Assembly (NCBI RefSeq): GCF_025699255.1
Contig: NZ_JAILWA010000001.1
Location: 62,001-126,000 of the forward strand
Length of the DNA: 64,000 nucleotides
Direction of reading: 5' to 3'
Source of the DNA: Nitrosopumilus sp.
Lineage (GTDB): Archaea; Thermoproteota; Nitrososphaeria; Nitrososphaerales; Nitrosopumilaceae
Shown in pieces: positions 27,950 through 45,472 of this stretch (positions are counted from its first letter, which is position 1; each line of letters opens with the position of its first letter). The position numbers and the translations under genes were made by a program. Below the pieces are notes generated by a model. It was not told where the DNA came from. It made no database searches and was given only the letters and a program-made list of their open reading frames with translations.

Positions 27950-28687
27950 TCAAGGCATCAATCTAGGGTGTAGTAACTGTAACCCATCTGCATTAAGATC
28001 AATTGGATGGATTTGTTCACTATGTTTAATTCCACGCATTTTTGTTACTTGTATTGTTCTTTCCATAGTATCTTCAATTCTAGTATGACGTAATTGAATA
28101 ATACCAGATGTGACAAACCATTCTAAAGGTATTTCATCACTTTCAGAATATTCTGAAAGGATAATACTAGTTACTCCAAAATTTTCTAGTGCTTGAACCA
28201 TTCCTTGTAATCCTTGTCTCAGGTAAAATTTATCAGAATATTGCATTGCCAAGATTGTAATTGAGTCTATAACAACACGTTTAGCTTCTATTCGTTTAAT
28301 GCTACTCAACAGTAATTTTGTTAAATGTTCAAAAGGCAATTGTTCACCACGGAATAATGAATCATCCTTGGCAATCAACTCATCTTGAATTTTAAACGGT
28401 CTTGCATCAATCATTAGAATTTTATCTTGAGAGACTAAATTATCAAAATCCCAACCATATGATTTACAATCGTTTTTTACTTCTTCTATATTTTGAGACA
28501 TTGTAACATATATTCCAGATTCATCAAAATCCTTAGCACCAGAATAGAGATATTGTAGTCCAAAAGTTGTTTTACCACTTCCAGGAGGGCCAGAAACAGT
28601 AATGGTTCTTCCAGGTTTAAATCCCCCAGAAATAACAGAGTCCAATCCAGGAATACCTGTTTTCACTTTAGAATATGTCGAATCCAT
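27950..28687 (-). CDS. KaiC-like RecA-superfamily ATPase
   Basis: 245 residues. Starts GIPGLDSVISGGFKPGRTI, Walker A GPPGSGKTTFGLQYL, Walker B RVVIDSITILA, and the KaiC-type end KMRGIKHSEQIHPIDL. One KaiC domain, no HTH. The archaellum component ArlH is also of this superfamily, but the C-terminal KMRG..HS motif fits the KaiC/RAD55 group better. It is the last gene of the minus-strand arm of the pilus island, next to a TrmB regulator. Confidence 0.85.
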   Translation of the reverse strand: MDSTYSKVKTGIPGLDSVISGGFKPGRTITVSGPPGSGKTTFGLQYLYSGAKDFDESGIYVTMSQNIEEVKNDCKSYGWDFDNLVSQDKILMIDARPFKIQDELIAKDDSLFRGEQLPFEHLTKLLLSSIKRIEAKRVVIDSITILAMQYSDKFYLRQGLQGMVQALENFGVTSIILSEYSESDEIPLEWFVTSGIIQLRHTRIEDTMERTIQVTKMRGIKHSEQIHPIDLNADGLQLLHPRLMP

Positions 28688-28768: not shown

Positions 28769-29620
28769 TTACAAGTGAATATTTTTTGAATTAGTCCATA
28801 AAGACTCAAAAAGTAATTTCATAGAATAAACCATTGATTTTGAATTAGTCCACATTGCAAATAACTCTTCAGATGAATTAGCATTTTTAGTAAAGAATAA
28901 CATTTCACCATTGTCTTTTAAAATAAAACACAGATGATTTTCTATATCTTTGCTTAATTTCTTAATGTTTTTTCTTTCCAAATCATCAAAAATGTAAGTG
29001 GTTTTATCAGAACATGCACTTAGTAATCTGAATGATTGTTTTGATTTTATGAATGATTCTAAGAAATCCCCATGATATAATTTCAGATAATCCTTTTCAG
29101 AACCTAAAATTAAAAATTCATCGTTGTAACTGTCAGTCATTTCAGTAATTTTTGAATGAATTTGATTTGCACCTTGCAACATTTGAAATTTTTCTTCAAC
29201 TTCATCATGAATTGAATCAAATGCGGGTATGTTGTCCCACAATTCAGACAACCCTTTTTCCATCTGTTCAAGGGATTTTACTCTTTCTTTTTCAGAATTT
29301 ACCAAAATCCAAATAGCTTTGTCTAAAGGTAGTGCTGTAAATTGAATTGGATGTTGGAAAGTTGCAGAAACTATTCCTTTGTTTTGTAATGCAGATAACA
29401 GATGATATGTTTCTGTTCGGGGTAATTTTAGTGCCTTGCATACTTCAGGGGCAGTTTTTGCACCATATTTTCCAAGATAAATGAAAACCTTACTTTGATT
29501 AGATGTTAATCCATATTGTAATAATTCAGTTTGAACCTTTTCAACAGATAATTTGTATTCATACATTTGTGAATCAGGAGTGGAATCAAATACGGATGTT
29601 TGTGTTGTGTTTTTTGCCAT
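28769..29620 (-). CDS. TrmB-like transcriptional regulator
   Basis: 283 residues. The N-terminal winged helix (about 30-100) reads LTSNQSKVFIYLGKYGAKTA then LKLPRTETYHLLSALQNKGI; a coiled segment and an alpha/beta effector domain follow (NDEFLILGSEKDYLKLYHGD). Clearly paralogous to the protein at 45540-46499 at the other end of the pilus island (LPRTETYHLLS versus IPRTETYHLLS). Role inferred: control of the pilus genes. Confidence 0.88.
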   Translation of the reverse strand: MAKNTTQTSVFDSTPDSQMYEYKLSVEKVQTELLQYGLTSNQSKVFIYLGKYGAKTAPEVCKALKLPRTETYHLLSALQNKGIVSATFQHPIQFTALPLDKAIWILVNSEKERVKSLEQMEKGLSELWDNIPAFDSIHDEVEEKFQMLQGANQIHSKITEMTDSYNDEFLILGSEKDYLKLYHGDFLESFIKSKQSFRLLSACSDKTTYIFDDLERKNIKKLSKDIENHLCFILKDNGEMLFFTKNANSSEELFAMWTNSKSMVYSMKLLFESLWTNSKNIHL

Positions 29621-29749: not shown

Positions 29750-30361
29750 TTAAACTCCAATTTTTATCATATTGTCAACAGGAATTGCTTTACCTGAGTA
29801 GATCGACTTTAAAGTAAAATTCTCTCTCATACCAGATGATTTTAAGAAAGTTATTTCTAAAATTCCTTCTTTTCCTCTAAATGCAACACAGCCCATATCT
29901 TCTTTGAGTCCTTTCTCCATAACATTAGACAAAGTAGATAATGTTCTTTGAAGGTTTTCCAGTTTTGCTTTTAACTCATCAACTGCTTTAAAGTATAATT
30001 CCAATTCTCCCTTGAGGCCTATTCCATTATACACTAAAATTTCATTTAGATTATACCATTTATCGCTAATTCCTTTTTTTCCTTTTTTCTTTTTCTCAGG
30101 TTTTGTCTTGGTTTTCTTGTCATTTGCTTTTTTATCCTCTATTTTCTTATCGTCAGATTTTGATTTGGGAGGTTCGCCAGCTAATTTTGCTTTTAGAGCA
30201 ATAAAATCAGGATCATCTGCAGAAGATTCTTCATTAGAGCGGATTTTTTCTCCCAACATGTTTGAATATTCTTTGATTTGGAATTCTGTATCTTCTATTT
30301 CTTTTTCCAGATTAACTTTAAGAGAATTAACAGAGTTAAATCTCTCTATCAGAGATTTCAA
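29750..30361 (-). CDS. Coiled-coil hypothetical protein, pilus island
   Basis: 203 residues from TTG 30361, whose TTGA overlaps the upstream stop by 4 bases. An N-terminal coiled coil, a Lys/Asp-rich linker (about 65-100, DDKKIEDKKANDKKTKTKPE), a second coiled coil (FKAVDELKAKLENLQRTLST) and a C-terminal beta segment (CVAFRGKEGILEITFLKSSG). No membrane span. Unrecognised. Coupling to the next gene implies a joint product. Confidence 0.65.
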   Translation of the reverse strand: MKSLIERFNSVNSLKVNLEKEIEDTEFQIKEYSNMLGEKIRSNEESSADDPDFIALKAKLAGEPPKSKSDDKKIEDKKANDKKTKTKPEKKKKGKKGISDKWYNLNEILVYNGIGLKGELELYFKAVDELKAKLENLQRTLSTLSNVMEKGLKEDMGCVAFRGKEGILEITFLKSSGMRENFTLKSIYSGKAIPVDNMIKIGV

Positions 30362-30891
30362 GATTCTTCGTCTAGTGGAACTATAGATGGTAGATTTTCT
30401 TTGAGTTGAGATAATGTGCTTAGTTGTTTAGTGGCAGTTCTCAAGAAGGTAATTTTCTCAGTCAAATATGATTTCTGTTTTTGAATTAATTCCAATAATT
30501 GAGGAGTGACAAATTCTACGATGCTAGTAATGACTTCTGGAGGATAATCAGTGAATTTTTTAGTCTCTGTTTTTCCATTTGCTAGTTTAATAATTAATTT
30601 CAAATTTGGAAGCATTGTGATATTGCTATCGGATGGTAAGTTGAAAATTTCAGGATGTACATTTGTTGAAAATGATAAAAATTGAGTTATTACCTGTAAT
30701 GCATTGTGTAAATCATCAATGACATTTGTTTTTTGATCCTCTAGTTCATAAATTTGAAGCGATTCCTCCATCAGAGTATTTAGCTGTGTTAGAGTCTTTG
30801 CATTAATATCATTAGGTTCAATCGAAACTTGTTCAGGAGCTTCCTGTTGTTCAGGAGCTGTTGAATTATCTGTAGATTCTGCAGATTGCAA
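30358..30891 (-). CDS. Helical hypothetical protein, pilus island
   Basis: 177 residues from TTG 30891; an in-frame stop three codons upstream excludes a longer start. Gln/Glu/Pro-rich disordered N-terminus, then helices (LNTLMEESLQIYELEDQKTN, LEKLIQKQKSY-like stretches) and a short beta part (NITMLPNLKLIIKLANGKTE). Soluble. Unrecognised, translationally coupled to the following coiled-coil gene. Confidence 0.65.
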   Translation of the reverse strand: MQSAESTDNSTAPEQQEAPEQVSIEPNDINAKTLTQLNTLMEESLQIYELEDQKTNVIDDLHNALQVITQFLSFSTNVHPEIFNLPSDSNITMLPNLKLIIKLANGKTETKKFTDYPPEVITSIVEFVTPQLLELIQKQKSYLTEKITFLRTATKQLSTLSQLKENLPSIVPLDEES

Positions 30892-30965: not shown

Positions 30966-33641
30966 TTATGGATTCCCGTAAATATGTATCAGCCCAAGAT
31001 CTATGGTTTTTTTGAACGTTTCTCCAGATTCATCATACCCTTGGAGATACAATGCACCATCATAATCCCCTGTTGGAACTGTATTTTCAGCTTTTGGAGC
31101 AGAGTCAGGAGACGGAGGGGATTGTAGTTGATAGAAATCAATTTCGGCATAATATTCAGCAGGTATGTATATGCTATCTTGATATGGAGTTATTTCAGAA
31201 TAATCCGCAATAGGAGTTGGTTGAGTAGTTGCATTCACAGTATATGGGACTGCAGCATATGAAGTTAAACCATCATTGGAAGTCAGGACCAGTCTTGTTC
31301 CAGCATAAACAAACCAAATTCCACCAGGGCCTTCATTATATGCCAAATAATTTATTTCCTCATCATATGAAAAAGATAGAAACGTAGGCCAACGTGGGGT
31401 TGGTGGAGGCGTTTGAAAGAATGAGGGGCCATCAGGAACATTAAAGAAACCTCCAAAATCATTATCAAATGTTATGTTGATAGGTAAATTTGATTCGTCT
31501 TCATCTTTCCAATCAAGAATTATTTTGATGCGATCACCTATATCAAAATCTATTACACTTGTTGAGGCCGCTGTCATATTTGCCTGCGAATATTTTAATT
31601 CAGAATCTTCATCATTGTCAGTGAAATTGTGGGTTTGAAGACTCAACCAATTGGTAGGATCCGAATCATCTTGATTTATGGTTGGATCATGAAATGGTAA
31701 CACTATTTTTTTCTCAAGTACAACATCTTCAATCCAAACCCCGTCTTCATCGGTACGTTCAACGGTCATGTATAACCGCGTACCGTTGTTACCATAGTTT
31801 GTGTAATACAAATCATTAACTTGATCAGCATCTAATGCAGCATTATCCCAAAACAGATAAGAAGCAATGTCGGCTTTCGCATCAGGTTCACCATCGCTAT
31901 TTTTTGCAAAAATTGCATTAAAATCTGGATCTACACTTGAATCACCAGAATATGTATCAGTATCAGAAACAACGAGTGTCCCATTAATGTATAGTTTACA
32001 TGACCAAGCGGCATCCCTAACACCTACAATGTGAATCCATTCGTTAGTATCATAAGCAGTTGGAGTTACACAATCTACAATCTTATTGTGACGATCAGGA
32101 GAATATTTGAATTCTATTTCTCCACCAGTTCCAACAAATAGACCAAATATGTCTTCATCTGAGCCATCTGAATCAGGACAATCATTACCTGGATCATAAC
32201 AAGGATCCTCTCCAAAAGCTACTAGAGGTTGTCCTCTTACATCAGCTCCTAGGTTTTCACTAATATCTGGAATTCTCACCCAAACAGCAATTGTGTCAGG
32301 AGCATAATTTTGTTCTACATTGTCAAATTCCCCATCATCTTGAAACCACTGATCTCCGTAAGTATCAGGATCAGACCTAAAGTAATTATCTCCATGAGGC
32401 CCGCCACCAGAATCAAAATCTCCTGAAAAACGTGGGTCTCCTTCTTCTTCTTTCATCCCTTTATCGTTATCAACTGTTCCCATCACATCACAAATTCTTT
32501 GACCATTTCCACAATCCTTAGAGTCCATCATAAATGCAAAAGTAGGTTCTGGAAAACCCAGAGGCACTGCATTAGAAAAATAATTCAAAGATGCATTAAA
32601 AGTTCCAATGGGTAATGATGTTGATGCAGTCATAGGTGCAGAAATAAATTCCAATGTGTTTCCATTGGGAGACAGGGTAAGTCCTGCAGAGTTTGGAGAT
32701 GAGCCATCCATGCCATATTCAGCATTAGGAGTTAGTGATGTATCAATATGAAAAAACAGTACATCAGTCAAAACAGAATCAGATTCAGTTAATCCTAAAG
32801 ATGTAAGTGCAGAACCTGCATCAGTTGCAATTGGAACTTCTTTGATAGATACAGATGTAGTTGCAAAATTTCCAGTATTTGCATTTGTCAGGGTAGCATT
32901 GAAAATCTGTTTATCGCCAACAGTATCGCCTGTTAATTCATAGGAATAGGTGAAAATTGCCACTTCGCCTGGGCCCAATGAATCATATGAAGTAGGGATT
33001 GGCCCTGAAATTAGTGAGTTTGACAGTCCTGCAGATGTTTCAACGAGGTCTTGTTCTGAAACATCCATCACAGGAACCAAATTATACAAATAATTTCCAT
33101 TGGACATGTTGTTTACAACTGTAAACAGGAGGGTAGACTCGAAGGTACTAGGAATTACTGAAGGATTTGGAGTCAAGCTCATGTAAACATTTTCATCAGC
33201 AAGAGAATTAACATAAAAAGAATTTATTTCGCCTCTAGATGAGACAACTTTCATGTTGTATCCTTTATCTACATCCATTGTAAAATCAACTAGACTGCTA
33301 AGATCAGCAGTATTGCCAGGTGCAATCTCTGCATCTAAATCAAATTTTTGAACTACGTCGTTTACTCCTTGCTCATCAATATACAGTGTAGTAATTTTTA
33401 CAGGTATTTCCCCAGTGTTTTTAATAATCCCATCTAATTTGTCAGATGCAGTAATATCAATTGAAGATATTTCAAATGCTTCAGATTGTTTATCTCTCTG
33501 TCTTGATTCCTCTACAATTAATGATTGAGAGTAATTACCCATCACATCCAAACTGTACGAAACATAAGACAGTGCACCAACAACCACTGCAACTAAAAAT
33601 ACAGTTCCAACTACAGCACTTAGACCTCTGTGAGATGTCAT
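30966..33641 (-). CDS. Giant pilin-like surface protein with LamG-like domain
   Basis: 891 residues. The N-terminus is a type IV pilin/archaellin signal: SHR then GLSAVVGTVFLVAVVVGALS, with predicted cleavage after Arg5. Beyond the hydrophobic helix come Ig/beta-sandwich segments, then a LamG/concanavalin-like module (about 425-615, with DTIAVWVRIPDISEN, WIHIVGVRD, KLYINGTLVVSD and calcium-type Asp-rich loops), and a C-terminal beta region. Pilins are normally 100-250 residues, so this is likely an adhesive minor or tip pilin. The stop of the smaller pilin-like gene overlaps its ATG by 4 bases. Confidence 0.82.
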   Translation of the reverse strand: MTSHRGLSAVVGTVFLVAVVVGALSYVSYSLDVMGNYSQSLIVEESRQRDKQSEAFEISSIDITASDKLDGIIKNTGEIPVKITTLYIDEQGVNDVVQKFDLDAEIAPGNTADLSSLVDFTMDVDKGYNMKVVSSRGEINSFYVNSLADENVYMSLTPNPSVIPSTFESTLLFTVVNNMSNGNYLYNLVPVMDVSEQDLVETSAGLSNSLISGPIPTSYDSLGPGEVAIFTYSYELTGDTVGDKQIFNATLTNANTGNFATTSVSIKEVPIATDAGSALTSLGLTESDSVLTDVLFFHIDTSLTPNAEYGMDGSSPNSAGLTLSPNGNTLEFISAPMTASTSLPIGTFNASLNYFSNAVPLGFPEPTFAFMMDSKDCGNGQRICDVMGTVDNDKGMKEEEGDPRFSGDFDSGGGPHGDNYFRSDPDTYGDQWFQDDGEFDNVEQNYAPDTIAVWVRIPDISENLGADVRGQPLVAFGEDPCYDPGNDCPDSDGSDEDIFGLFVGTGGEIEFKYSPDRHNKIVDCVTPTAYDTNEWIHIVGVRDAAWSCKLYINGTLVVSDTDTYSGDSSVDPDFNAIFAKNSDGEPDAKADIASYLFWDNAALDADQVNDLYYTNYGNNGTRLYMTVERTDEDGVWIEDVVLEKKIVLPFHDPTINQDDSDPTNWLSLQTHNFTDNDEDSELKYSQANMTAASTSVIDFDIGDRIKIILDWKDEDESNLPINITFDNDFGGFFNVPDGPSFFQTPPPTPRWPTFLSFSYDEEINYLAYNEGPGGIWFVYAGTRLVLTSNDGLTSYAAVPYTVNATTQPTPIADYSEITPYQDSIYIPAEYYAEIDFYQLQSPPSPDSAPKAENTVPTGDYDGALYLQGYDESGETFKKTIDLGLIHIYGNP

Positions 33642-34168
33642 GGTGCAACCACCTGAGAAATGAATTGGTTGTCCCTATTTGTAAAAACAATCACATCAAG
33701 TTCATCTGATGATTGCCACGGATATGTTGCGTTTAATGAAAGAGATTCAGATTTTACAACACCGGCATCAGTATATGTATAGGTAAACGAAGTATTGTTA
33801 GTTCCAGTGACATTAGTGACCTGAATTGATGTAACATTTAATCCTAAAATTCCAACATTAGCTATCGTGACATTTAGATGGTTGGCAGTCATTATTCCTG
33901 AAGGAGTTGCAAACCAAATATTTTCAAAAATTAAATCTTCACGAATTTTATTCATTTGAGTATTAAACACCTCATCCATTTCTTGTTGTTGCTGAGAAAT
34001 ACTAGTTTGAGACCATCCAAGTAACATAACTCCTATTATGCTGACAGATGCCAAAAGAATTCCACTGGTAACAACATTTGCAATTCCTCTATGATGAGAA
34101 ATTCTAAACTTTACCGTGCATGTCTTGAAATTTTTATCGAGGTTAAAAGAAAACATATCTTTTATCAT
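33638..34168 (-). CDS. Minor pilin-like protein
   Basis: 176 residues. A 27-residue basic leader ends SHHR before GIANVVTSGILLASVSIIGV, the hydrophobic pilin helix; predicted cleavage is between R and G. The rest is a beta domain with several N-glycosylation sequons (NVT, NTS, NAT). Size and layout recall the DUF1628 pilin-like or ArlF/ArlG group. Translationally coupled (ATGA) to the 891-residue pilin-like gene, so the two may form a tip complex. Confidence 0.8.
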   Translation of the reverse strand: MIKDMFSFNLDKNFKTCTVKFRISHHRGIANVVTSGILLASVSIIGVMLLGWSQTSISQQQQEMDEVFNTQMNKIREDLIFENIWFATPSGIMTANHLNVTIANVGILGLNVTSIQVTNVTGTNNTSFTYTYTDAGVVKSESLSLNATYPWQSSDELDVIVFTNRDNQFISQVVAP

Positions 34169-34185: not shown

Positions 34186-34713
34186 TTATGTACCAGATTG
34201 GACGATGTCAGGGTTTTCAATTTTCTCATCAGTAGATGGATCTGCTTTATCGGATGTCTCAGATGAAGATTCTAAAATTTCTTCAGGTAGATCCTCAGAA
34301 ATATTTTCATCAATAGATTCAGAATTTATGAGTTCATCAGGTTCTATTAAGGAGTCATTCATTGTTCCAATTGTATGTGGAGGACTGGAAACGTTCAAAC
34401 TCTTTGAAAGTAAAAAGAAAGTTGGAAAAAGTTCATGGTAAATCATTGTAAGGATTTTAGGAATATCATTTTCATCTTTTTCTAAAATTTCATTTCGCTC
34501 TACAGAATCTCCTGAAATTTTTGCAATTCCTTCAATTGCTAATCGCACATTTTTTGGGTTGGATAATGCTGTAAAACCATATTTAAAAACAGATTGTTCC
34601 TCGCTATTATCAACTTCTTCAATATTTGCCTCTACATCGTATTTATCCAATTTGTTTAGTGTAGGATCATTTTTACTCATAGCAATAGAGGTAAGCTCAA
34701 CATGTGTATTCAT
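34186..34713 (-). CDS. Acidic hypothetical protein, pilus island
   Basis: 175 residues from ATG 34713 (or 164 from ATG 34680). A HEAT-like or helical middle (KYGFTALSNPKNVRLAIEGI, then PKILTMIYHELFPTFFLLSK) and a disordered Ser/Asp/Glu-rich C-terminal 65 residues. No signal peptide. First gene of the minus-strand arm, divergent from the AAA+ gene. Function unknown. Confidence 0.65.
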   Translation of the reverse strand: MNTHVELTSIAMSKNDPTLNKLDKYDVEANIEEVDNSEEQSVFKYGFTALSNPKNVRLAIEGIAKISGDSVERNEILEKDENDIPKILTMIYHELFPTFFLLSKSLNVSSPPHTIGTMNDSLIEPDELINSESIDENISEDLPEEILESSSETSDKADPSTDEKIENPDIVQSGT

Positions 34714-34809: not shown

Positions 34810-35832
34810 TTGGAACAAAAAAAACAGCTTATTTCATCTGTTAATCGAACTAGAATCAGTTCTGATAATGTTAATCTTTCAGTATCCATTTCAAAGATTA
34901 AGAAAAATACACACGAATTATCAAAAATGTATGATTTTAAAAAATACATGGATTCATCAGACATGCATTTTCCTGAAGAAATGGATGAAATGATTCCAAA
35001 GGATACTCCTCCTTATCTTGATAATGGAGAGCATTATGTAGAAAGAATTGGAAGGGCGTTAAAATTTTTCAAGCAGTGTGCACTAATTGGTCCGAGTGGA
35101 ACGGGAAAAACTCACATCGTATATCTTGTTGCAGAATTAGCTGGATTGCCAATGTGGGAAATTAACTGTGGTTTGGCAACTTCGGTTTTTGATTTATTTG
35201 GAAGATATGTAGGATTGGGAAAAGAGAATTGGATTGATGGATTGATTACAGGTTGGTGTAGAAAAGGGGGAATTCTCTATCTGGACGAAGCAAATATGAT
35301 GAAACAGGATGTTGCAACAAAACTTAACCCGTTATTAGATCAAAGAGGCCACATGGTTTTAACTGAAAAAGATAGTGAAATTATTCACAGGCATAAACAT
35401 GCATATATGATAATTAGTATGAACCCCGTTTCATCAGAATTTGCAGGTACAAAACCAATCAACGCAGCCATGAGAAGAAGGATGAGTGTTTGGTTGAACT
35501 TTGACTACATGAGTGTAGGAGACAATATTGATGAAAAAGAGATCAACATGGTTTCAAAGAAAGGAGGCATTCCCATGAGTGATGCTGAAGTTATTGTAAA
35601 GGCAGGAGCCAAAATAAGACAAGAATACAAAATGGGTGATTTGCCATATGGTCCATCTGTTGGAGATTTGGTCAATTGGGCAAAGATTTGTTCTGATGGT
35701 ATGTCAATTATTGATGGAGGAAATGAAACATTAATCCCTATGACCAGTGATGACCCTGAAGTTCAAGATGAAGTTAGACACATTGTAAAGAAGATTATTG
35801 AAAGCCATGTGGCAGCAAAGAAAAAGGAGTAA
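34810..35832 (+). CDS. MoxR/CbbQ-type AAA+ ATPase
   Basis: 340 residues from TTG 34810; the next ATG (34927) would remove 39 residues but keep the ATPase core, so the start is uncertain. Walker A GPSGTGKTHIVYLVAE, Walker B GGILYLDEANMM, sensor 1 MIISMNPVSSEF and an Arg cluster AAMRRRMSVWLNFD. The order and the LPMWEINC..FDLFGRYV loop resemble CbbQ/NorQ/GvpN. Such ATPases work with a VWA protein as a remodelling or insertion chaperone; that partner is the next gene, 5 bases downstream. Confidence 0.85.
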   Translation: MEQKKQLISSVNRTRISSDNVNLSVSISKIKKNTHELSKMYDFKKYMDSSDMHFPEEMDEMIPKDTPPYLDNGEHYVERIGRALKFFKQCALIGPSGTGKTHIVYLVAELAGLPMWEINCGLATSVFDLFGRYVGLGKENWIDGLITGWCRKGGILYLDEANMMKQDVATKLNPLLDQRGHMVLTEKDSEIIHRHKHAYMIISMNPVSSEFAGTKPINAAMRRRMSVWLNFDYMSVGDNIDEKEINMVSKKGGIPMSDAEVIVKAGAKIRQEYKMGDLPYGPSVGDLVNWAKICSDGMSIIDGGNETLIPMTSDDPEVQDEVRHIVKKIIESHVAAKKKE

Positions 35833-35837
35833 GATAA

Positions 35838-37409
35838 ATGAAAGAAACAGTGCAAGAAATTGCACATCAATTATTCTTTGATATTTCAGAAAGAAAACCA
35901 ATAGATGTGGACATGTTCTTTTTAGAACAACAATATTTTCCTCAGATTGATTATGAACCAAGAATGACAGTATATCTTCCAATGCCAAGACAAATTCAAG
36001 GGATAGAAACAATTCAGGGTTGCACATTTGCAAATTTAGAAAAATATCAAAATACAATTTTTGGATTGTTTTTAGCATCTGTATGTCATGCAGCAGGACA
36101 TGCCAGAGTCACAGATTTTAAAAAATACAAAAAATGGATGGTAAATAAAAACAAAAAACGAGCATATGAAACATTTGAGTTTATTGAAGATGTCAGAGTA
36201 AACCAATTTTTAAAAAATAAATTTCCACAGTATTTTTTAGAAATTCAAAAAATTCAGAATTATTTTGTGCAATTAAATGAAAACAAACTAAAACAAGATA
36301 TTAAAAAAAACTCAAAAAAAATATTTTCAAACAAATTCATTACAGACATCAAAATTAAAAGAGAAATAATTGAGGAAAAGGTATTACAAATGACATCTGA
36401 AAATTATACAGAGTTTGAAGAAATTGCAGACGAAATTTATGAATCATCAAATATCTTAACCGATAACAAACTACCTTTTGCAGATCACTATAGTCATCCA
36501 AAAAGAATAGAAAAATGGATAGAGAATGTCAGTATTTCGACTAAAGGGGAATTTCTTAGCATTGTAGAAAGATTTGGAGAAGTGTGGTTTGAGCAGCTAA
36601 AACGTAGAGCCAAAGTTAGAAAAAAATATGGTGGAATTACAGAAGATTTGGAATTTGACAAGATAGATTTTGCACCGGAAAATATTGGAGAATACCTTAG
36701 ATTGAAAAATGCCACTCACTTGTTTTTGAAAAAAATGTCAGCACAGATGAAAATGACACCAAATGTCATGGATGAGGGAATGCCAGAAGATATGGGGTTG
36801 TTACAGATGCAAGCAGCCATTCAGGCAGTTGCAGCACAAAATAACAGCATTCAGATTTTTGAACAAGACGACTATAGGAGAATTGAGGAAGAGTGGGCAA
36901 TAGTTGTGGATACTAGCAGCAGTATGAGGCTAAAATTTGATGAAATGAAGAAATTTGCAATATGTTTAGGAGAAGCAGCAAATGAGGTGAATTCAAAAAA
37001 TGGAAAATGGGGATTTTTTACATTTAATAACAATTTCACCATTGTAAAAGATCATTATGAGAACTATGATCAAAATTCAAAATCACGAATTGGCGGTATC
37101 GAAATTAAAGGATTCTCATTTATAGCAGATGCCGTAAAATTATGTTCTAGGATATTAGAAAGAGAGAATATTGAAAGAAGATACATCTTTTTAATTACAG
37201 ATGGCCAAGCTTTAGGAACATATGAAGCAGACAAAAAAATGGAAGAAGCTGTTGAAGCAGCAAGGAAAAAAGGAATTAGCATAGTAGCAATTGGAATGCC
37301 TGCAGGAATTACAAAAATTTTTTCAATGTGTATGCCTTATGAGGGATTAAGAAAAACAGTTGCAAGGTTTCTAGGAGCTTATACAATGATTGCTGGCGAC
37401 GATATGTAA
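35838..37409 (+). CDS. VWA-domain protein of CbbO/NorD type
   Basis: 523 residues. The N-terminal helical region carries ASVCHAAGHARV and FEFIEDVRVNQFLKN, similar to the HAAxH and IEDxRVE blocks of NorD/CbbO. The C-terminal von Willebrand A domain (about 350-520) has a MIDAS site, VVDTSSSMRLKFDEM, and FLITDGQALGTYEAD. GGAG at 35826-35829 precedes the ATG. In known pairs CbbQ/CbbO and NorQ/NorD activate or load metal into a target enzyme. Here the pair sits directly ahead of the pilin genes, so a pilus-related target is inferred. Confidence 0.85.
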   Translation: MKETVQEIAHQLFFDISERKPIDVDMFFLEQQYFPQIDYEPRMTVYLPMPRQIQGIETIQGCTFANLEKYQNTIFGLFLASVCHAAGHARVTDFKKYKKWMVNKNKKRAYETFEFIEDVRVNQFLKNKFPQYFLEIQKIQNYFVQLNENKLKQDIKKNSKKIFSNKFITDIKIKREIIEEKVLQMTSENYTEFEEIADEIYESSNILTDNKLPFADHYSHPKRIEKWIENVSISTKGEFLSIVERFGEVWFEQLKRRAKVRKKYGGITEDLEFDKIDFAPENIGEYLRLKNATHLFLKKMSAQMKMTPNVMDEGMPEDMGLLQMQAAIQAVAAQNNSIQIFEQDDYRRIEEEWAIVVDTSSSMRLKFDEMKKFAICLGEAANEVNSKNGKWGFFTFNNNFTIVKDHYENYDQNSKSRIGGIEIKGFSFIADAVKLCSRILERENIERRYIFLITDGQALGTYEADKKMEEAVEAARKKGISIVAIGMPAGITKIFSMCMPYEGLRKTVARFLGAYTMIAGDDM

Positions 37410-37504: not shown

Positions 37505-38149
37505 TTGAAAACCAAACTAAGCAAAAAACGTGCAATCAGTACAGTGCTCACAACAGTCATCATATTGGTGTCTTCAGTTGTTCTTGGTTCAGGTGTCGTG
37601 CTTTACGGAACATCATTGTTTCAGGGCGGTACACAAACTGAAAACATTAACGTTTCAGGAATCAAGGTATGGGTACACGATACTGATACCGTAGGTGTAG
37701 CTTGGGGAGCAGCAGCTGTAAGAAACACAGGTGACAAAGTAGTTGCAGTTGATAAAATATCAATTAGAGGTACAGACATTCCATTTGAAAATTGGTATGC
37801 AGATACATCACTAACATCATCTGAATTCCAACAAGCTCTGAATCACACAGGTTGGGTAAATGCAGCTCCAGGAACAGATGGACCTGCAATAGCTAAACTT
37901 GGAACTTGTGCATCAAATACATCCTATCTATGTATTGATCAAGATTCAGCAGGATCAGGAACAAGCATAATTTCCGCAGATGCTGCTACAGGTCCAGTAT
38001 CTCTGAATCCTGGTGGAACAGCAGTTATTTACTTTAAGGTAGGTAACGGGACATACACTACATTGGATTCAGGCATTCAATCAAATGTAAGCATATTTGC
38101 AGGAAATGCAGGCTCACCCTATTCAATCATAGTAGAAGGCCAACTATAG
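37505..38149 (+). CDS. Type IV pilin, copy 1
   Basis: 214 residues from TTG 37505. Basic leader KTKLSKKR, then AISTVLTTVIILVSSVVLGS, the class III signal and assembly helix; predicted cleavage after Arg9. The mature domain has N-glycosylation sequons (NVS, NHT, NTS, NGT) and a likely disulphide between C135 and C143. Residues 2-183 are identical to copy 2; the last 31 differ (YTTLDSGIQSNVSIFAG versus LTTLDSGASTTVSVFAG). Probably a major pilin. Confidence 0.9.
   Translation: MKTKLSKKRAISTVLTTVIILVSSVVLGSGVVLYGTSLFQGGTQTENINVSGIKVWVHDTDTVGVAWGAAAVRNTGDKVVAVDKISIRGTDIPFENWYADTSLTSSEFQQALNHTGWVNAAPGTDGPAIAKLGTCASNTSYLCIDQDSAGSGTSIISADAATGPVSLNPGGTAVIYFKVGNGTYTTLDSGIQSNVSIFAGNAGSPYSIIVEGQL
37506..38049 (+). 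repeat. 544-base direct repeat, pilin copy 1 part
   Basis: Bases 37506-38049 appear identical to 38264-38807, an offset of 758. Identity stops abruptly at codon 182, after which the genes differ at many sites including amino-acid changes. The flanks of the two genes are unrelated. Pattern fits a recent duplication kept uniform by gene conversion with a diversifying 3' end. Confidence 0.92.
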
Positions 38150-38262: not shown

Positions 38263-38907
38263 ATGAAAACCAAACTAAGCAAAAAACGTGCAATCAGTAC
38301 AGTGCTCACAACAGTCATCATATTGGTGTCTTCAGTTGTTCTTGGTTCAGGTGTCGTGCTTTACGGAACATCATTGTTTCAGGGCGGTACACAAACTGAA
38401 AACATTAACGTTTCAGGAATCAAGGTATGGGTACACGATACTGATACCGTAGGTGTAGCTTGGGGAGCAGCAGCTGTAAGAAACACAGGTGACAAAGTAG
38501 TTGCAGTTGATAAAATATCAATTAGAGGTACAGACATTCCATTTGAAAATTGGTATGCAGATACATCACTAACATCATCTGAATTCCAACAAGCTCTGAA
38601 TCACACAGGTTGGGTAAATGCAGCTCCAGGAACAGATGGACCTGCAATAGCTAAACTTGGAACTTGTGCATCAAATACATCCTATCTATGTATTGATCAA
38701 GATTCAGCAGGATCAGGAACAAGCATAATTTCCGCAGATGCTGCTACAGGTCCAGTATCTCTGAATCCTGGTGGAACAGCAGTTATTTACTTTAAGGTAG
38801 GTAACGGTACACTTACTACATTGGATTCAGGTGCATCGACTACAGTCAGTGTATTTGCAGGAAAAGCTGGTGGCCCACAAAGCATCACAGTAGCAGGTCA
38901 ATCCTAG
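38263..38907 (+). CDS. Type IV pilin, copy 2
   Basis: 214 residues from ATG 38263. Identical to copy 1 in the leader, assembly helix and most of the mature domain; the C-terminal strands are different (GGPQSITVAGQS). Copy 1 begins with TTG and this one with ATG, so translation strengths may differ. Both lie just before the ATPase gene. One copy may be dominant, or the pilus may be mixed. Confidence 0.9.
   Translation: MKTKLSKKRAISTVLTTVIILVSSVVLGSGVVLYGTSLFQGGTQTENINVSGIKVWVHDTDTVGVAWGAAAVRNTGDKVVAVDKISIRGTDIPFENWYADTSLTSSEFQQALNHTGWVNAAPGTDGPAIAKLGTCASNTSYLCIDQDSAGSGTSIISADAATGPVSLNPGGTAVIYFKVGNGTLTTLDSGASTTVSVFAGKAGGPQSITVAGQS
38264..38807 (+). repeat. 544-base direct repeat, pilin copy 2 part
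   Basis: Second copy of the repeat at 37506-38049, covering codons 1 (second base) to about 182 of pilin copy 2. Recombination between the copies would delete one pilin gene or swap the C-terminal segments. Confidence 0.92.
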
Positions 38908-39008: not shown

Positions 39009-39037
39009 CAAAAAATCAAGATCAAGTATTGAAGAAC

Positions 39038-40573
39038 ATGGGTAAAAAGAAAGAAGAGCAAGGACTAGAAACATTTCTTAAAAGTGAATTCCTAGATGAA
39101 ATTAATAACACTACTCCAAAAGGTTCCAAAATTTTAGAAAAATACCCACTAAAGGCACCATTTAGTTATGCAAATATCATACAAAATCAGGATACAGGAA
39201 GCATATCTTATCAAGTAGATGAAACTAAACTTAATGCTTCAGAAGAAATAGTATACAATCAGCTATACAGATTAATTGAAGAAAACTTAGATTCTCCAGA
39301 AAATATTGAAAAAGATTTTGGGTTTATGTCATTTGTAAATAAAATTCTAAAAGAAAACGAGAAACTGTTTCAAGAACAGCCATTGGCAAGTATTGAAAAA
39401 GTAAAATACTATTTGGAAAGAGACATTGATGGATTTGGCAACATAGATCCCATAATGAATGATCCAAACATAGAAGACGTAAGTTGTAGTGGAATTCTTA
39501 CACCAATTTATGTTTGGCACAGAAAATATGACAGCATTCCATGCAACATTACATTTGAAAATGAAAAATTAAATTCCTTTGTTTCACGAATTGTGTTCAG
39601 AGCTGGAAAACACATTAGTTCAGCACATCCAATTTCAGATTTAGCTTTACAAGGAAATCATAGAATTTCAGTATTATATCAAAAAGAAGTCACACCAAAA
39701 GGGACTAGTTTTACCATAAGAAAATTTAAAGAAGATCCATATTCAGTGATAGATTTAATTTCGTTTGGAACCATCAATGTAGATATCGCATCATATCTAT
39801 GGCTATTAATGGAAGCCAAGATGTCCATCATGGTAATAGGTTCAACTGGAAGTGGCAAAACAACAATTCTAAATGCAATTACGGGTTTAGTGAATCCAGA
39901 TTACAAGATTTTTTCCGTAGAAGATGTATCTGAAATCAACATAAAACATGAAAATTGGTTTAGTTTAGTATCACGAGTAGGATTTGGACCTGAAGGGGAA
40001 GGAGAAATTGGTCTATATGATTTAATTAAATCAGGAGTAAGGCACAGACCAGATTATATTGTAGTAGGTGAGATTAGAGGGTCAGAAGCATATGTAATGT
40101 TTCAAGCAATGGCCACAGGTCATGGAGGATTATGTACAATGCATGCTGATAGTTTAGAATCTGCAAGTAAAAGATTACAACAAAAACCGATGGACATTCC
40201 AGCATCATATATGGCATTAATGAATTGTGCAATTGTAGTTAGAAGGGTTACAGACAAAGACGGGAAGAGTACCAGAAGAGCAATATCGATTCAAGAAATA
40301 AAAACTGCAGATTCTTATCATAATGCATTCAAATGGGAACCAAAATCAGATTATTTTAGTCCACAATTAGAAGATAGTGAAATGTTAGAAAGAATCTCAC
40401 AGCAAACAGGTAAAAGTATTGACGAAGTTTTAGAAGAATTTGAAAGAAGAAAAATTGTTTTAAAATGGTTGGTTCAGAGAGGCATTAGAGCATATGATAA
40501 AGTAGCAGAGATAGTTGGAAAATACTATAGAGAACCAGAGACATTGATGAAAAAAATAGAATACGGAGTGTAA
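39038..40573 (+). CDS. Pilus assembly/secretion ATPase (PilB/ArlI-like)
   Basis: 511 residues from ATG 39038; a TTG at 39029 is an alternative suggested by the TATA spacing. Walker A VIGSTGSGKTTILNAITGLV, Asp box SVEDVSEINI, Walker B region YIVVGEIRGSEAYVMFQAMA, and His box GHGGLCTMHADS. Hexameric motor of the type II/IV secretion superfamily that powers pilin assembly at the cytoplasmic face. Two bases separate its stop from the platform gene. Confidence 0.93.
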   Translation: MGKKKEEQGLETFLKSEFLDEINNTTPKGSKILEKYPLKAPFSYANIIQNQDTGSISYQVDETKLNASEEIVYNQLYRLIEENLDSPENIEKDFGFMSFVNKILKENEKLFQEQPLASIEKVKYYLERDIDGFGNIDPIMNDPNIEDVSCSGILTPIYVWHRKYDSIPCNITFENEKLNSFVSRIVFRAGKHISSAHPISDLALQGNHRISVLYQKEVTPKGTSFTIRKFKEDPYSVIDLISFGTINVDIASYLWLLMEAKMSIMVIGSTGSGKTTILNAITGLVNPDYKIFSVEDVSEINIKHENWFSLVSRVGFGPEGEGEIGLYDLIKSGVRHRPDYIVVGEIRGSEAYVMFQAMATGHGGLCTMHADSLESASKRLQQKPMDIPASYMALMNCAIVVRRVTDKDGKSTRRAISIQEIKTADSYHNAFKWEPKSDYFSPQLEDSEMLERISQQTGKSIDEVLEEFERRKIVLKWLVQRGIRAYDKVAEIVGKYYREPETLMKKIEYGV

Positions 40574-40575
40574 CC

Positions 40576-42021
40576 ATGTCTTTTTTAAAAAAACATGAAG
40601 AAGAAGACAAGAAGAAGAAATTAAATAAAAAAATTAATGCAGAATTGCCCTTTTTTATTACCATAGTTACTCTATTGGCAACTAGTGGTTTTGGACCCTA
40701 TACTATTTTTTTGAAAATAAAAGATTTGGAATTATTACCAAATGTCAGATTAGAAGGAATAAAGATCCTTAAAAAAATCGATATTTTAGGTAAAGACCCA
40801 CTAGTAGTAATGTCTGAAACAAATGAGAGAGGATCAAATTTTGGAGATTTTTTAAATGGTTGGGTATCCTCGATTCAAAGTGGAGGAGACGTAGTAAATT
40901 TTCTTACCACAAAAATGAATTCAGCATTTGACATGTATGAATCACAACAAGCAGAATTGGCAAAAAAAGTTGAAACCGTGATTGAGACATACATGACAAT
41001 GCAGGTAGTAGTTTTAGCAATTTACATCATAGTTACTGCCACATCCACAGAAGGAATAGGGAGTACTAATGCAATTGGAGAAATTGATCCCCTCTACATG
41101 GTAATAATCATGCCACCTGTAGTATCAATATTATTTTCAATTATTGCAAGCAAATTAAACAAATCAAAAGTCAAAGAATTGGATTGGAAAAAAATCACAA
41201 TGTTTGGAATCCCTGGAATATTGGCAGCAATTGTAATAATTACACTAAAAATATTACCTGATTTTAACCTCTATATTTTAGGAGGAGCATTGATTGCAGC
41301 TGCAATGTGGCCTGCGTTAAATTTTAAAAATAAATATAAATTTTCTTTAGATTCAGAATCAGCAACAGCACAAATTATGAGAGATGTTGCAGAATCAAGA
41401 AAAGCAGGTTTAGGTCCTGAAAAATGTGTAATACAAACAACCAAAAGGAAAGATTATGGATTGTTTAATCGAATTGCAAATGGAATTGCAAATAAATTAG
41501 AATGGGGGATGACATTGGACAACATTTTTGAGTTTATTAAAAAAGAAATTACAGATTTCCAAATTTTAATTAATTTCAAAGTGTTGTTTGAAATTATCTC
41601 CTCTGGAGGAGGTAATGTTAATACACTTAGTACATTAGCAGGGGTTGCAGAAAAAATTCACACTATAGAAAAAACAAAGAGAGAGAAATTAAAACCATAT
41701 GTCATGGTAGGTTTTATGTTAATTGCAATTACAGGATTTACTACATTACTAGTAATTGAGTCATTAACAAGTTTGGGAGCTCAACTAGAAGAAGATGAAG
41801 TAAAAAGAACAGCATTAGAATTAGAATCAAAATCAAGATTTGAATTACTTGGAATTGCAATACTTGTTCAATCTTGGATTTCAGGTTTATTTTTAGGTAA
41901 AATTACCACTGGATCATATTCTGGAGGTTTCATGTATTCAATATTTCTGGTAGGAGTATCTATTGGAGCAATAGTGGTCATTCAGATGAAAATTTTTAGT
42001 GTTTCTTCAATATTCGGCTAA
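40576..42021 (+). CDS. Pilus membrane platform protein (TadC/ArlJ-like)
   Basis: 481 residues. Two T2SSF-type cytoplasmic helical domains (INAELPFFITIVTLLATSGF near the start; the second begins DSESATAQIMRDVAESRKAG) separated and followed by paired membrane spans (VVVLAIYIIVTATS, MVIIMPPVVSILFSIIASKL, GFMLIAITGFTTLLVIES, YSIFLVGVSIGAIVVI). It anchors the ATPase and pilin assembly. Same operon as the ATPase. Confidence 0.92.
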   Translation: MSFLKKHEEEDKKKKLNKKINAELPFFITIVTLLATSGFGPYTIFLKIKDLELLPNVRLEGIKILKKIDILGKDPLVVMSETNERGSNFGDFLNGWVSSIQSGGDVVNFLTTKMNSAFDMYESQQAELAKKVETVIETYMTMQVVVLAIYIIVTATSTEGIGSTNAIGEIDPLYMVIIMPPVVSILFSIIASKLNKSKVKELDWKKITMFGIPGILAAIVIITLKILPDFNLYILGGALIAAAMWPALNFKNKYKFSLDSESATAQIMRDVAESRKAGLGPEKCVIQTTKRKDYGLFNRIANGIANKLEWGMTLDNIFEFIKKEITDFQILINFKVLFEIISSGGGNVNTLSTLAGVAEKIHTIEKTKREKLKPYVMVGFMLIAITGFTTLLVIESLTSLGAQLEEDEVKRTALELESKSRFELLGIAILVQSWISGLFLGKITTGSYSGGFMYSIFLVGVSIGAIVVIQMKIFSVSSIFG

Positions 42022-42083: not shown

Positions 42084-44696
42084 ATGAAAGCATATTTTTT
42101 GATATTTTGTGTTTTTTTGAGTATCTTTGTAATTCCTGTACAGGCTCAAATTACGTCAGAATTTGGATATCAGTTACATCCTGAAAAATTACTTGAGAAT
42201 ACAGAGGGGAAATTACAAATTTTTGTTACATCTAACAACATGATGGTTCCAAAACAAATTGAAAATCTAAAAGTTGTAAGTTCTGATAACTCAATAATTC
42301 AAATTCTAGGAGTCGAAGATAGCAATGATAAATTTACAAAAAATATTTTAATTAAAGCAGTAAACCCAGGAATAACTACTATAGCATTAGCTGCATCAGG
42401 ATTCTCATCTAAAGAAATTTCGCTTGAAGTTTTTAATAACAATAATCACCCAACACAAATTTTGATGAAAACAACACCGGAAGTATTTCCTGTAGATGGT
42501 CCCAGACATGGATATGTGGCATTAGAACTAGCTACAACAGGAGGATTGCCCACACTGGCATCAGAAGATACAACCATACACCTGTACACTCCAAATAATG
42601 ATGTGATAGCATTAAAAAATTCTGAAATTGTGATTGCAAGTGGTAATTACTATGCAATTACAGAATTTGATATCATAGGTAGTGGAGATGCAATAATTTT
42701 TGCAGAAACGGAAGGAATGAAAAAAATCAGTAGTATTGTAAGTGTATTAGAAGCTTCAAAACCTCTTAAATTACAATTATCTGTATTCCCAGAAAATTAT
42801 AATAGTTTTAGTGGAAACAAAGGGTTTGCAATAATTCAATTACTTGATGCAGAAAATATTCCAGTTTTAGCAGAAGAAGACATACCTTTCAAATTAGAAA
42901 TAGAAAATCCAGATGTTGCAATTAACACTAGCCATGATTTTGAAGAAGTCATATTTGATAAAAATCAATTAAAAATTGAGAAAGGAGAATATTCAACATT
43001 TACAACATTTACACCCAGACCCAATATTGGAGATTTTACTGATGATTCTGAACAGACATACAATATGTTTATTTCAGCAAATAATATTTTGACCGAAGGA
43101 GATCAGATAAAAATAATTCACGATGAAATAGGAGCATTAGAAGGCAAGGGGCCATCAGTTACCAAAGTTTTACCATTTCTGACTACAGGTAAAGAAGAAA
43201 TCATTGCTGTCACATATTATGAGACCAGTATTGAAGTGTCTAGACAAACAGGAGGCAGTAGTCAAGGAAGTACAAATAGGGAACTTGTCACAGTAACTGT
43301 ACCTGTTCAGGCCAATGAAGAACATGAAATTAATTTCTCATCTTCAGAATCAGACACAGTAAATCCCATCAATCCAATAATGAAGAAAGGAGAAAGTGGA
43401 GTAATTGTTTATGGTAAAACAGGGACGATTATTCCTGATGATTCTGTAACGTTCTACATTACAGATAACGAAGGAGTTAAAACAGCATTAGGAAATCCAA
43501 TAGGTCCAATCAAAGGAGATATTTCATTGGTTGTTGAACCTATGCTTCCAATGATTTTAGCAGAAAAACAATTTCCAGTGTTAGGATATTTGCAAGAAGG
43601 AAATAAAGGTGAAGAAACTACAACAGAAACTACAACAGAAGACGGGGAAGATGCAGAAGAAGATGCAAGGTCGGGAGTTACACCATTTATTGAAGACGGA
43701 GTATTAACTTTTTCAGCAAATAATTTTGTAGATGTAGATTCCACCGCAATTAAAAGAAACCAACCATATTCAGTAATCAACATATTGTCAAATGAGGTTG
43801 GATCTTCCACATTGTTATATCAAATGGGAGGATTTGACGGAAGTACAGATATTGAGACACATACAACAGATCCTGCACAAATTCATTTATCATTTCCAAA
43901 AAATATTTTAGCAAATTCTGAAACTTTAGCTACAGTACAATTACTAGATTCAGTAGGAAACCCAGTATATGCAAAAAAAGATATTGGAATTAAACTAGTC
44001 TCAAATAACGAGAGCATTTTGAAAATTCCTCAAGAAGTAACAATAGAAGAGGGACAATATTTTACAACATTTGATTTAGAAACAATTGAAGAAGGTATTG
44101 TTGAACTTGCTTTACTTTCGGAAGATTTCTCATTATCAAAATATGACATCAATATTGTTGACATCAGCCCAGTTTTGACATTAGATCTTTTAGGTACAAT
44201 GAATTGGAATGAAAGAATTGAAGGTAAATTATCGGTCAGTATACCAGAAATACAAACATCTCTTTCAGGATTTGAAGTAGAATGGATTGTAGAGGGGGGT
44301 GAATTAATAAAAATGGATGAATCGACAAACAATGAAGGAATTGCAACAGTAAACGTTATGGCAAATGATAAAGATAAAGTATCGATCTCAGCAAAAGTAT
44401 TAGGAAATGGACTAAGTGAATCTACAATTTCAAAAACAGCTAGCATACTAAATATGCCAATTGTTGAAGAAGTGTCAGATATAGAATCTGAGAATTCAGT
44501 AAACGAACTATCTTTAGACCCCATCATTATGATTATCATCATAATTCCCACATCTATAGCAGGAATGTTATTTTTCCTAAAACGTACAGATAGGTTAGAA
44601 TTAATTACAGAAAAAATTCCAATTGCAGATAAGTTGAATTTGGGAGACAGGATAGAAGAAATTAAGGAGAAAATATCAGACATCAAAAATCGTTAA
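42084..44696 (+). CDS. Membrane-anchored Ig-like repeat protein, pilus island
   Basis: 870 residues. Signal peptide MKAYFLIFCVFLSIFVIPVQ; a long extracellular part with at least three related beta modules, each with a signature like (A/I)xVQLLDSxGxPVxAxxDI and IExGxYxTxF (around residues 150, 260 and 620); a Thr/Glu linker (EETTTETTTEDGEDAEED); a C-terminal membrane helix (IMIIIIIPTSIAGMLFFLKR) and a basic/acidic cytosolic tail. Probably exposed on the surface or forming a collar around the pilus base. Not an ArlF/G homologue by size. Function inferred from location only. Confidence 0.8.
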   Translation: MKAYFLIFCVFLSIFVIPVQAQITSEFGYQLHPEKLLENTEGKLQIFVTSNNMMVPKQIENLKVVSSDNSIIQILGVEDSNDKFTKNILIKAVNPGITTIALAASGFSSKEISLEVFNNNNHPTQILMKTTPEVFPVDGPRHGYVALELATTGGLPTLASEDTTIHLYTPNNDVIALKNSEIVIASGNYYAITEFDIIGSGDAIIFAETEGMKKISSIVSVLEASKPLKLQLSVFPENYNSFSGNKGFAIIQLLDAENIPVLAEEDIPFKLEIENPDVAINTSHDFEEVIFDKNQLKIEKGEYSTFTTFTPRPNIGDFTDDSEQTYNMFISANNILTEGDQIKIIHDEIGALEGKGPSVTKVLPFLTTGKEEIIAVTYYETSIEVSRQTGGSSQGSTNRELVTVTVPVQANEEHEINFSSSESDTVNPINPIMKKGESGVIVYGKTGTIIPDDSVTFYITDNEGVKTALGNPIGPIKGDISLVVEPMLPMILAEKQFPVLGYLQEGNKGEETTTETTTEDGEDAEEDARSGVTPFIEDGVLTFSANNFVDVDSTAIKRNQPYSVINILSNEVGSSTLLYQMGGFDGSTDIETHTTDPAQIHLSFPKNILANSETLATVQLLDSVGNPVYAKKDIGIKLVSNNESILKIPQEVTIEEGQYFTTFDLETIEEGIVELALLSEDFSLSKYDINIVDISPVLTLDLLGTMNWNERIEGKLSVSIPEIQTSLSGFEVEWIVEGGELIKMDESTNNEGIATVNVMANDKDKVSISAKVLGNGLSESTISKTASILNMPIVEEVSDIESENSVNELSLDPIIMIIIIIPTSIAGMLFFLKRTDRLELITEKIPIADKLNLGDRIEEIKEKISDIKNR

Positions 44697-44773: not shown

Positions 44774-45472
44774 ATGATTGAGCATATAACCAATTATGAA
44801 ATAATTGGAATAAGTATCGCGTTAGTGATGTTAGTAATTGGTTCAATCATTGATTTTTGGAAACGTGAAATCCATGATTATTATTGGATTGGATTTGGAG
44901 CAACTGGATTGATATTGGTGTTTTTAAGCTCAGAGATTGTTTCTAATTTACTAGTAATTGGATTTGCACTCATTATAGCACCATTTGTAATATTAGTATG
45001 GAGAATAGGTTTGTTTGGAGGTGCAGATGCATTTGCATTAATTGCTTTAGCGATCATTGCGCCAATGGCAACATTAAGTGAAAGTCCGATATCTCCATTT
45101 ACTACATTATCAAATGCAGCAATATTATTTGTAATTCCATTTATTGTAAATATTTCTAGAAATATATTTTCTCAATTAAAAGGAGAGAAAATTTTTGAAG
45201 GGTTTGAAGAAACCAAAATAAAAAAAATTATTGCATTATTAATAGGATATAAGGCAAAAAATCCAAAATTCGCATTTTCTATCGAAAAAGTAGAAAAAAA
45301 TAAGAGAAAATTTACTTTTGCAATGCATCATGCAGAAAATGAAGAATTCTGCAACACCCCAAATACATGGATAACTCCTGGAATTCCATATTTGCTTCTA
45401 ATTACAGGAGGATTTGTTATTCAGTTGTTATATGGAGACATAATTTTGAGCCAATTATTGGTCATGAGGTAG
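44774..45472 (+). CDS. Prepilin peptidase (A24 family)
   Basis: 232 residues with about six membrane segments. The first catalytic Asp is in SIIDFWKREIHDYYWIG and the GxGD-type second site is FGGADAFALIALAIIAPMAT. Such aspartyl proteases (FlaK/PibD) cut class III leaders of pilins and archaellins, here the four pilin-like products of the island. A hydrophilic region of about 80 residues sits before the last membrane span. Confidence 0.88.
   Translation: MIEHITNYEIIGISIALVMLVIGSIIDFWKREIHDYYWIGFGATGLILVFLSSEIVSNLLVIGFALIIAPFVILVWRIGLFGGADAFALIALAIIAPMATLSESPISPFTTLSNAAILFVIPFIVNISRNIFSQLKGEKIFEGFEETKIKKIIALLIGYKAKNPKFAFSIEKVEKNKRKFTFAMHHAENEEFCNTPNTWITPGIPYLLLITGGFVIQLLYGDIILSQLLVMR

Follow-up and report, generated by a model that had tools for sequence, protein, structure and literature searches.

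A small pilin and a large LamG-bearing pilin as a candidate adhesive tip of a type IV pilus in Nitrosopumilus

Gene pair and surrounding pilus locus

The window analysed here is a 64,000-nucleotide stretch of a Nitrosopumilus sp. contig, from a genome of 1.65 Mb (99.5% complete) that most likely belongs to a marine ammonia oxidiser of the Nitrosopumilaceae. It encodes two adjacent pilin-like proteins on the minus strand, whose open reading frames have the positions and lengths given in the original prediction. The pair and the neighbouring genes, in window coordinates, are as follows.

27950..28687, minus strand: KaiC-family ATPase, probably a regulator of the locus (KaiC 3.2e-58; below the ArlH/FlaH cut-offs)
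28769..29620, minus strand: TrmB-type regulator, probably of the locus (TrmB 4.5e-11; syntenic)
29750..30361, minus strand: 203-aa charged protein, probably coiled-coil (conserved, downstream of the pair)
30358..30891, minus strand: 177-aa conserved protein, downstream of the pair (conserved in the locus of relatives)
30966..33641, minus strand: predicted large modular pilin with a LamG domain, 891 aa (ORF, Pfam, family alignment A1, relatives)
33638..34168, minus strand: small pilin, presumed partner or minor pilin, 176 aa (ORF, family alignment A3)
34186..34713, minus strand: acidic protein encoded just upstream of the small-pilin gene (a conserved member of the locus)
34810..35832, plus strand: MoxR/GvpN-type AAA ATPase (GvpN-like, 5.5e-8; present in 51 of 250 genomes)
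35838..37409, plus strand: vWA-domain partner of the MoxR ATPase (weak VWA matches; syntenic in relatives)
37505..38149, plus strand: major pilin, copy 1 (leader KKRA/ISTVLTTVIILV; UpsA-like, 1e-7, below cut-off)
38263..38907, plus strand: major pilin, copy 2 (identical to copy 1 save near the C-terminus)
39029..40573, plus strand: pilus assembly ATPase of the PilB3/FlaI/UpsE type (T2SSE 1.3e-35; FlaI 1.9e-106, below the equivalog cut-off; co-occurrence)
40576..42021, plus strand: TadC/UpsF-type membrane platform protein (T2SSF 1.8e-13; UpsF 3.2e-21)
44774..45472, plus strand: FlaK/PibD-type prepilin peptidase candidate (FlaK 8e-15, below cut-off; Asp at 27, 35 and 85)

The pair lies on the opposite strand to the MoxR/vWA, major pilin, ATPase and TadC genes and diverges from them, a gene order that recurs across the family. 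In PMC4858521, linked MoxR/GvpN and vWA genes are a mark of thaumarchaeal subclade 4A pili, and KaiC ATPases are named as pilus regulators. By its gene content, comprising the ATPase, TadC, pilins and linked vWA and MoxR/GvpN genes, the locus is predicted to encode a type IV pilus of this subclade. Membership of the pair in a pilus assembly locus is well supported by sequence.

The locus ATPase and TadC protein also match BasE and BasF, as would suit a bindosome-like assembly, in which sugar-binding proteins with class III leaders serve nutrient capture at the membrane or S-layer, outside any long pilus. These matches fall far under the equivalog cut-offs, however (BasE, 241 versus 1000 bits; BasF, 61 versus 1300 bits), and the locus includes two genuine genes for major pilins. 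The LamG fold is not that of a solute-binding protein, and none of the genes adjoining the pair was recognised as a sugar transporter. A bindosome role appears very unlikely on these grounds.

As had been predicted, the ATG of the large-pilin gene overlaps the stop codon of the small-pilin gene, by 4 bp (ATGA). Overlaps of this length are ordinary by themselves, since they occur in 8 of 46 (17%) same-strand neighbours within the window, and the overlap alone was therefore rejected as evidence of coupling. The exact 4-bp overlap recurs in 22 of 51 large pilins of relatives.

Pilin module and extension of the large protein

A class III leader had been proposed for the large protein, with cleavage at SHR/GLSAVVG. 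Such a leader is present in all 25 large and all 28 small relatives, as a [KRS][GA][LIV][ASTG] motif followed by about 20 hydrophobic residues; the position of the cut requires correction. Archaeal prepilin peptidases recognise a positive residue at -2 and Gly/Ala at -1, and cleavage is therefore expected one residue further on, at HRG/LSAVVG. In the large relatives (25/25) the motif takes the form [KRS][GA]L[ST], with a leader of 6-7 residues, and the 20 residues that follow include none that is charged or polar. The leader of the small pilin reads SHHRG/IANVVTSGILL.

A run of about 20 hydrophobic N-terminal residues is common to both kinds of signal, and could also belong to an ordinary signal peptide on a secreted or membrane-anchored protein that is no pilin. 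Processing of the large pilin by signal peptidase I is nevertheless unlikely, because the leader motif is kept in 25 of 25 relatives and a FlaK-like prepilin peptidase is predicted in the same locus. The large protein also has a pilin head that shares homology with the small pilin, and its gene is set in a pilus locus; we regard the non-pilin reading as scarcely credible.

The large protein was divided into the following modules.

33213..33641, minus strand: pilin module, residues 1-143, with leader, hydrophobic helix and beta head (hhalign, profile matches)
32826..33206, minus strand: first beta/Ig-like module, residues 146-272 (conserved phylum-wide with the pilin module)
32544..32825, minus strand: second module (D3), residues 273-366 (conserved in alignment A1; own HMM)
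31788..32429, minus strand: LamG/ConA-like lectin-type domain, residues ~405-618 (Pfam, profile matches, low-confidence fold model)
30969..31787, minus strand: C-terminal domain, residues 619-891 (conserved in alignment A1)

The small-pilin family profile, over its whole length, aligns with residues 2-143 only of the large pilin (hhalign probability 98.4, E 5.9e-15), and the large-pilin profile (positions 3-143) matches an archaeal flagellin of solved structure, 8fk7 (E 1.9e-9). The match of the pilin module to UpsA (NCBIfam NF046073; E 5.9e-5) is below cut-off, at 23.2 versus 130 bits, and the small pilin matches Pfam Arch_flagellin (PF01917) weakly and below threshold (E 0.066; 14 bits against a gathering value of 29.5); the Pfam search reported no PF01917 match for the large pilin. 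Because residues 1-143 align to the small-pilin family from end to end, the large protein appears to be a complete archaeal pilin with an extension of about 750 aa. It combines the hallmarks of a modular pilin, namely a class III leader with an uncharged helix, an N-terminal pilin module and a recognised non-pilin domain (Laminin_G_3). Its assignment as a modular pilin, that is, a genuine archaeal pilin carrying an extension, is well supported at the level of sequence.

The LamG module anticipated at residues ~425-615 was recovered by Pfam as Laminin_G_3, at residues 493-608 (E 6.1e-11; 43.1 bits versus a cut-off of 27.6), a model matched by 18 of the 25 family members. With a profile of all 25 members, neurexin LNS domains were matched at 3.7e-20, over a span somewhat longer than that of Pfam and in agreement with 425-615. 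The residues C524, C548, W535 and W598 are invariant. These profile matches support the LamG/ConA-like domain as genuine.

Structure prediction used a two-row alignment of the window protein and its nearest named relative, from the MAG Nitrosopumilus sp. ECS24A2. AlphaFold2 gave a mean pLDDT of 29.5 for the full protein and a weak model of the LamG domain alone (pLDDT 51.7, pTM 0.55), the weakness being attributed to the two-row alignment. Searched with Foldseek, the weak LamG model returned LamG/ConA-like folds on top, none below E 1e-3, with perlecan LG3 as the best PDB match (E 1.7e-3, TM 0.36), and also CBM40 sugar-binding modules. The model is thus consistent with a LamG/ConA fold. The calcium-type Asp loops of the original prediction did not hold up: the most Asp-rich loop (~481-496) is an insertion almost confined to this sequence and lacking in most relatives, which leaves conserved calcium loops unsupported. 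The calcium-binding site is variable within the LamG/ConA-like superfamily, and the extension is acidic throughout.

The solved structures nearest by sequence are the LamG domains of neurexin, laminin, agrin and pikachurin. Several of these bind proteins, and LamG domains in general are often protein-binding rather than sugar-binding. They count towards a tip-displayed modular pilin whose LamG domain binds a protein partner, for recognition of other cells, kin or a host, instead of a glycan. The CBM40 modules among the weak fold-search matches point the other way, as do the ConA-like domains of bacterial modular pilins, which proved to be lectins (PMC9934059), and we hold a protein ligand to be rather doubtful. 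Glycan and protein ligands of LamG are inseparable by sequence.

Among the other modules, the Ig-like one has weak matches to DUF7507 and, in one relative, to CARDB; its own HMM (IG1) matches in 51 large pilins. The stretch between D3 and LamG is variable. A profile search against the PDB found no relative of known structure for the C-terminal domain (619-891), and the large pilin had no Pfam match at E ≤ 1 to a PilY1 beta-propeller or DUF2341.

Conservation and divergence of the pair

A large-pilin match was found in 71 of 250 Nitrosopumilaceae genomes. Among the 50 genomes that carry the cognate ATPase, 47 have the family, as do 24 of the 200 that lack it (Fisher 4e-29, uncorrected for ancestry, in a sample with some incomplete assemblies); three of the 50 ATPase-carrying genomes lack a large-pilin match. 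By models independent of the gene caller, 50 of 51 large pilins are preceded by a pilin gene of the same strand, the sole exception being one in genome G038 (L041) with no small partner nearby. In 46 of these 50 cases the upstream gene lies within 250 bases of the large pilin; the other four belong to the genomes' second pilus system and have one extra small pilin-like gene in between. The pairing extends to remote families within the phylum (L087-L093), where it mostly adjoins the ATPase and TadC genes, and the pair also moves as one unit to second loci without the ATPase. No relatives turned up in viral contigs, whether the search used the window protein or its paralogue.

Across the family the pilin and Ig core is kept and the distal part is variable. 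On a tree of this core the LamG state requires four changes, three of them being forced by well-supported branches. In two further Nitrosopumilus genomes (G092, G136), the same locus encodes a large pilin that has the pilin and Ig modules but neither LamG nor the C-terminal domain. In genome G266 (L087) the C-terminal domain is kept and LamG is missing between its two flanking modules, a state that either insertion or deletion could explain. Replacement of LamG by PA14 on the large pilin was considered and rejected: in genomes G177, G178 and G237, PA14 and SpaA_4 sit on enlarged small-pilin-type proteins adjoining LamG-less large pilins.

Between the window protein and its nearest relative, identity is 91% in the pilin module, 63% in the Ig and C-terminal modules and 42% in LamG. 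The dN/dS ratio is highest in LamG, at 0.46 versus 0.07 in the pilin module. Positive selection on LamG was not found: in the closest pairs, no module reached a dN/dS of 1. At a separate second locus (L033 versus L047), LamG evolves no faster than the pilin module. These comparisons suggest purifying selection throughout, with faster change of a probably exposed LamG module. Such divergence fits an exposed ligand-binding part; relaxed constraint may be an alternative cause.

The same comparisons bear on where the pair would sit. Minor pilins have been discussed as cell-proximal or distal caps (PMC11178815), and Makarova et al. (PMC4858521) assign most archaeal minor pilins a position close to the base, drawing an analogy with minor archaellins. 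The pair could accordingly lie at the pilus base or in the envelope, with the large pilin's domains docking the filament in the S-layer and LamG attaching to S-layer glycans of the cell itself instead of to foreign surfaces, and LamG gain and loss within the family could then track S-layer changes. Docking to the cell's own S-layer should, however, co-evolve more slowly than LamG does, given its much faster divergence than the pilin module. The same type of machine also serves LamG-less large pilins, and big C-terminal additions suit a cap more than a stacked base subunit. We therefore judge a basal or envelope position unlikely.

Proposed tip function and relation to known systems

We favour, as reasonably probable, a reading in which two co-translated minor pilins initiate and cap the filament and present a variable adhesin of lectin type, with LamG at the tip binding glycans. 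Counting against it are the strand of the pair, opposite to that of the major pilin and ATPase genes, the unpartnered large pilin of G038 and the three ATPase-carrying genomes that lack a large-pilin match. In the proposed mechanism, both pilins would enter the membrane, be cut after HRG by the FlaK/PibD-type peptidase and be built into the filament by the locus's own ATPase/TadC machine, the small pilin acting as the co-translated packing partner of the large one. The bulky extension of the large pilin would block stacking of further subunits, so that the pair would most likely start and cap the filament. LamG would thereby be held out at the tip, where it could bind glycans or glycosylated surfaces. 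Because it unites a whole pilin bearing a LamG domain with a small partner pilin, in a pairing conserved across the phylum, the pair is by sequence a strong candidate for the adhesive end of an archaeal pilus. We infer the tip location, the physical complex of the two proteins and glycan binding by LamG; a tip location with adhesion to glycans or particles is plausible.

The arrangement resembles that of Streptococcus sanguinis, in which PilC joins a pilin to an Ig module and a lectin module of ConA-like type; it recognises sialylated and sulfated glycans, and the small pilin PilA stabilises it (PMC9934059). Both systems pair a small with a large modular pilin carrying Ig-like and ConA-like modules in a type IV pilus locus, and tip glycan adhesion is the role proposed, here by analogy, in each. 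The pilins there belong to a bacterial family, whereas those of the window are archaeal flagellin/UpsA-like; the large protein here has 891 aa and extra modules compared with about 53 kDa, and binding is known only in the bacterial system. Convergence is more likely than common descent as the origin of this architecture. Lectin-bearing modular pilins are thus already known in bacteria, and bacteria were the subject of a modular-pilin survey (PMC8179133); the present data would extend the principle to a whole archaeal phylum.

Among archaeal systems, the locus is of the same kind as those for thaumarchaeal pili of subclade 4A (PMC4858521) and for the adhesion-like pili known from ammonia oxidisers (PMC7554672), with MoxR/GvpN and vWA, KaiC, ATPase, TadC and pilin genes in common. 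An extra adhesin or S-layer component is predicted there for such loci in general terms, and adhesin-like large proteins have already been predicted in archaeal pilus loci (PMC4858521, PMC5797428). The main texts of PMC4858521 and PMC7554672 make no mention of LamG or laminin domains, and their available parts describe neither a two-pilin pair nor a shared pilin and Ig core with exchangeable ends. In the open-licence literature we found nothing joining LamG, pilin, archaea and adhesin, nor anything on LamG in the pili of ammonia-oxidising archaea. The Ups, Aap and Bas systems of Sulfolobus have homologous ATPase, TadC and pilin modules, but AapA/AapB and UpsA/UpsB are described as ordinary small pilins, none bearing LamG, and their NCBIfam equivalog cut-offs are unreached here.

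To our knowledge, the makeup of the archaeal type IV pilus tip is not known. Even in the well-studied Aap pilus, a capping role for the second pilin is no more than conceivable (PMC11178815). The pair thus offers a concrete tip candidate in ammonia-oxidising archaea, a globally important group whose attachment to particles or other cells is difficult to investigate.

The more interesting part is the phylum-wide pair with exchangeable ends. Tentatively, and with less confidence than for the tip role itself, we propose a phylum-wide tip cassette, made of a small pilin and a pilin and Ig carrier with an exchangeable outer module, several such cassettes serving one machine as interchangeable tips. 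The outer modules might be LamG, unassigned domains or, in some cassettes, PA14 on an enlarged partner pilin. If true, the cassette would be the archaeal counterpart of the bacterial tip complexes PilA/PilB/PilC or KilLMN. The Myxococcus Kil pilus has interchangeable minor-pilin tips on one machine (PMC12075869), and KilLMN and TadEFG are likewise sets of minor pilins, of which a genome has several paralogous ones, with a large pilin whose C-terminal domain is variable. That system differs in being a bacterial Tad pilus with three pilins per tip and LamG unmentioned, and its tip role has been tested genetically (PMC12075869). The host genome of the window holds three sets of this kind: the window pair, a second LamG-bearing pair about 42 kb away with no adjoining ATPase (L033), and, belonging to the second pilus system, a set that lacks LamG (L094). 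Two of the three LamG proteins in this genome are these large pilins.

Further large pilins in the same genome

The genome encodes another LamG modular pilin, together with a small pilin of its own. Roughly 42 kb separates this second pair from the first, the 891-aa LamG pilin and its 176-aa small partner. No assembly ATPase was found near the second pair on contig C1, and this pair may serve the pilus of the first as an alternative tip. A further type IV pilus system lies elsewhere in the genome. It has an ATPase and TadC-type genes of its own, and three pilin-type genes in tandem, one of which encodes a 592-aa large pilin without LamG.

L033 6058-8982 (C1:48160-51072): second LamG modular pilin, 804 aa, with its small pilin
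L094 (C1:176000-192000): second type IV pilus system

Major pilins and conserved proteins of the pilus locus

In the window, the tandem major pilins share the same sequence to about residue 183, start codon excepted; towards the C-terminus they differ at roughly a dozen positions. The tandem looks like a recent duplication, with the exposed end diverging.

37505-38149: major pilin copy 1
38263-38907: major pilin copy 2
42084-44696: 870-aa protein, secreted-looking, with a C-terminal hydrophobic segment
34186-34713, 30358-30891 and 29750-30361: three conserved proteins with no assigned function

Relatives of the 870-aa protein, which is encoded directly after TadC, occur at further pilus loci (L056, L069, L071 and L094), and the protein is perhaps the S-layer-like component that has been predicted. 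In almost every copy of the locus the three conserved proteins bracket the pilin pair; they may be cytoplasmic parts of the pilus machine.

Enlarged small pilins and other LamG proteins

At three of the compared loci, the neighbours of LamG-less large pilins are small-pilin-type proteins enlarged to about 480-510 aa, which carry PA14 and SpaA_4 domains.

L065 6030-7481: PA14/SpaA_4 protein
L068 5625-7070: PA14/SpaA_4 protein
L069 17464-18999: PA14/SpaA_4 protein

Besides the LamG pilins, the sole LamG protein of the window's own genome (G000) has two LamG domains in an open frame of 2196 aa (C20:5192-6415; loci L099 and L100). In genome G134, stop codons break the paralogous LamG pilin (L046 6951-9131), which looks like a decaying copy.
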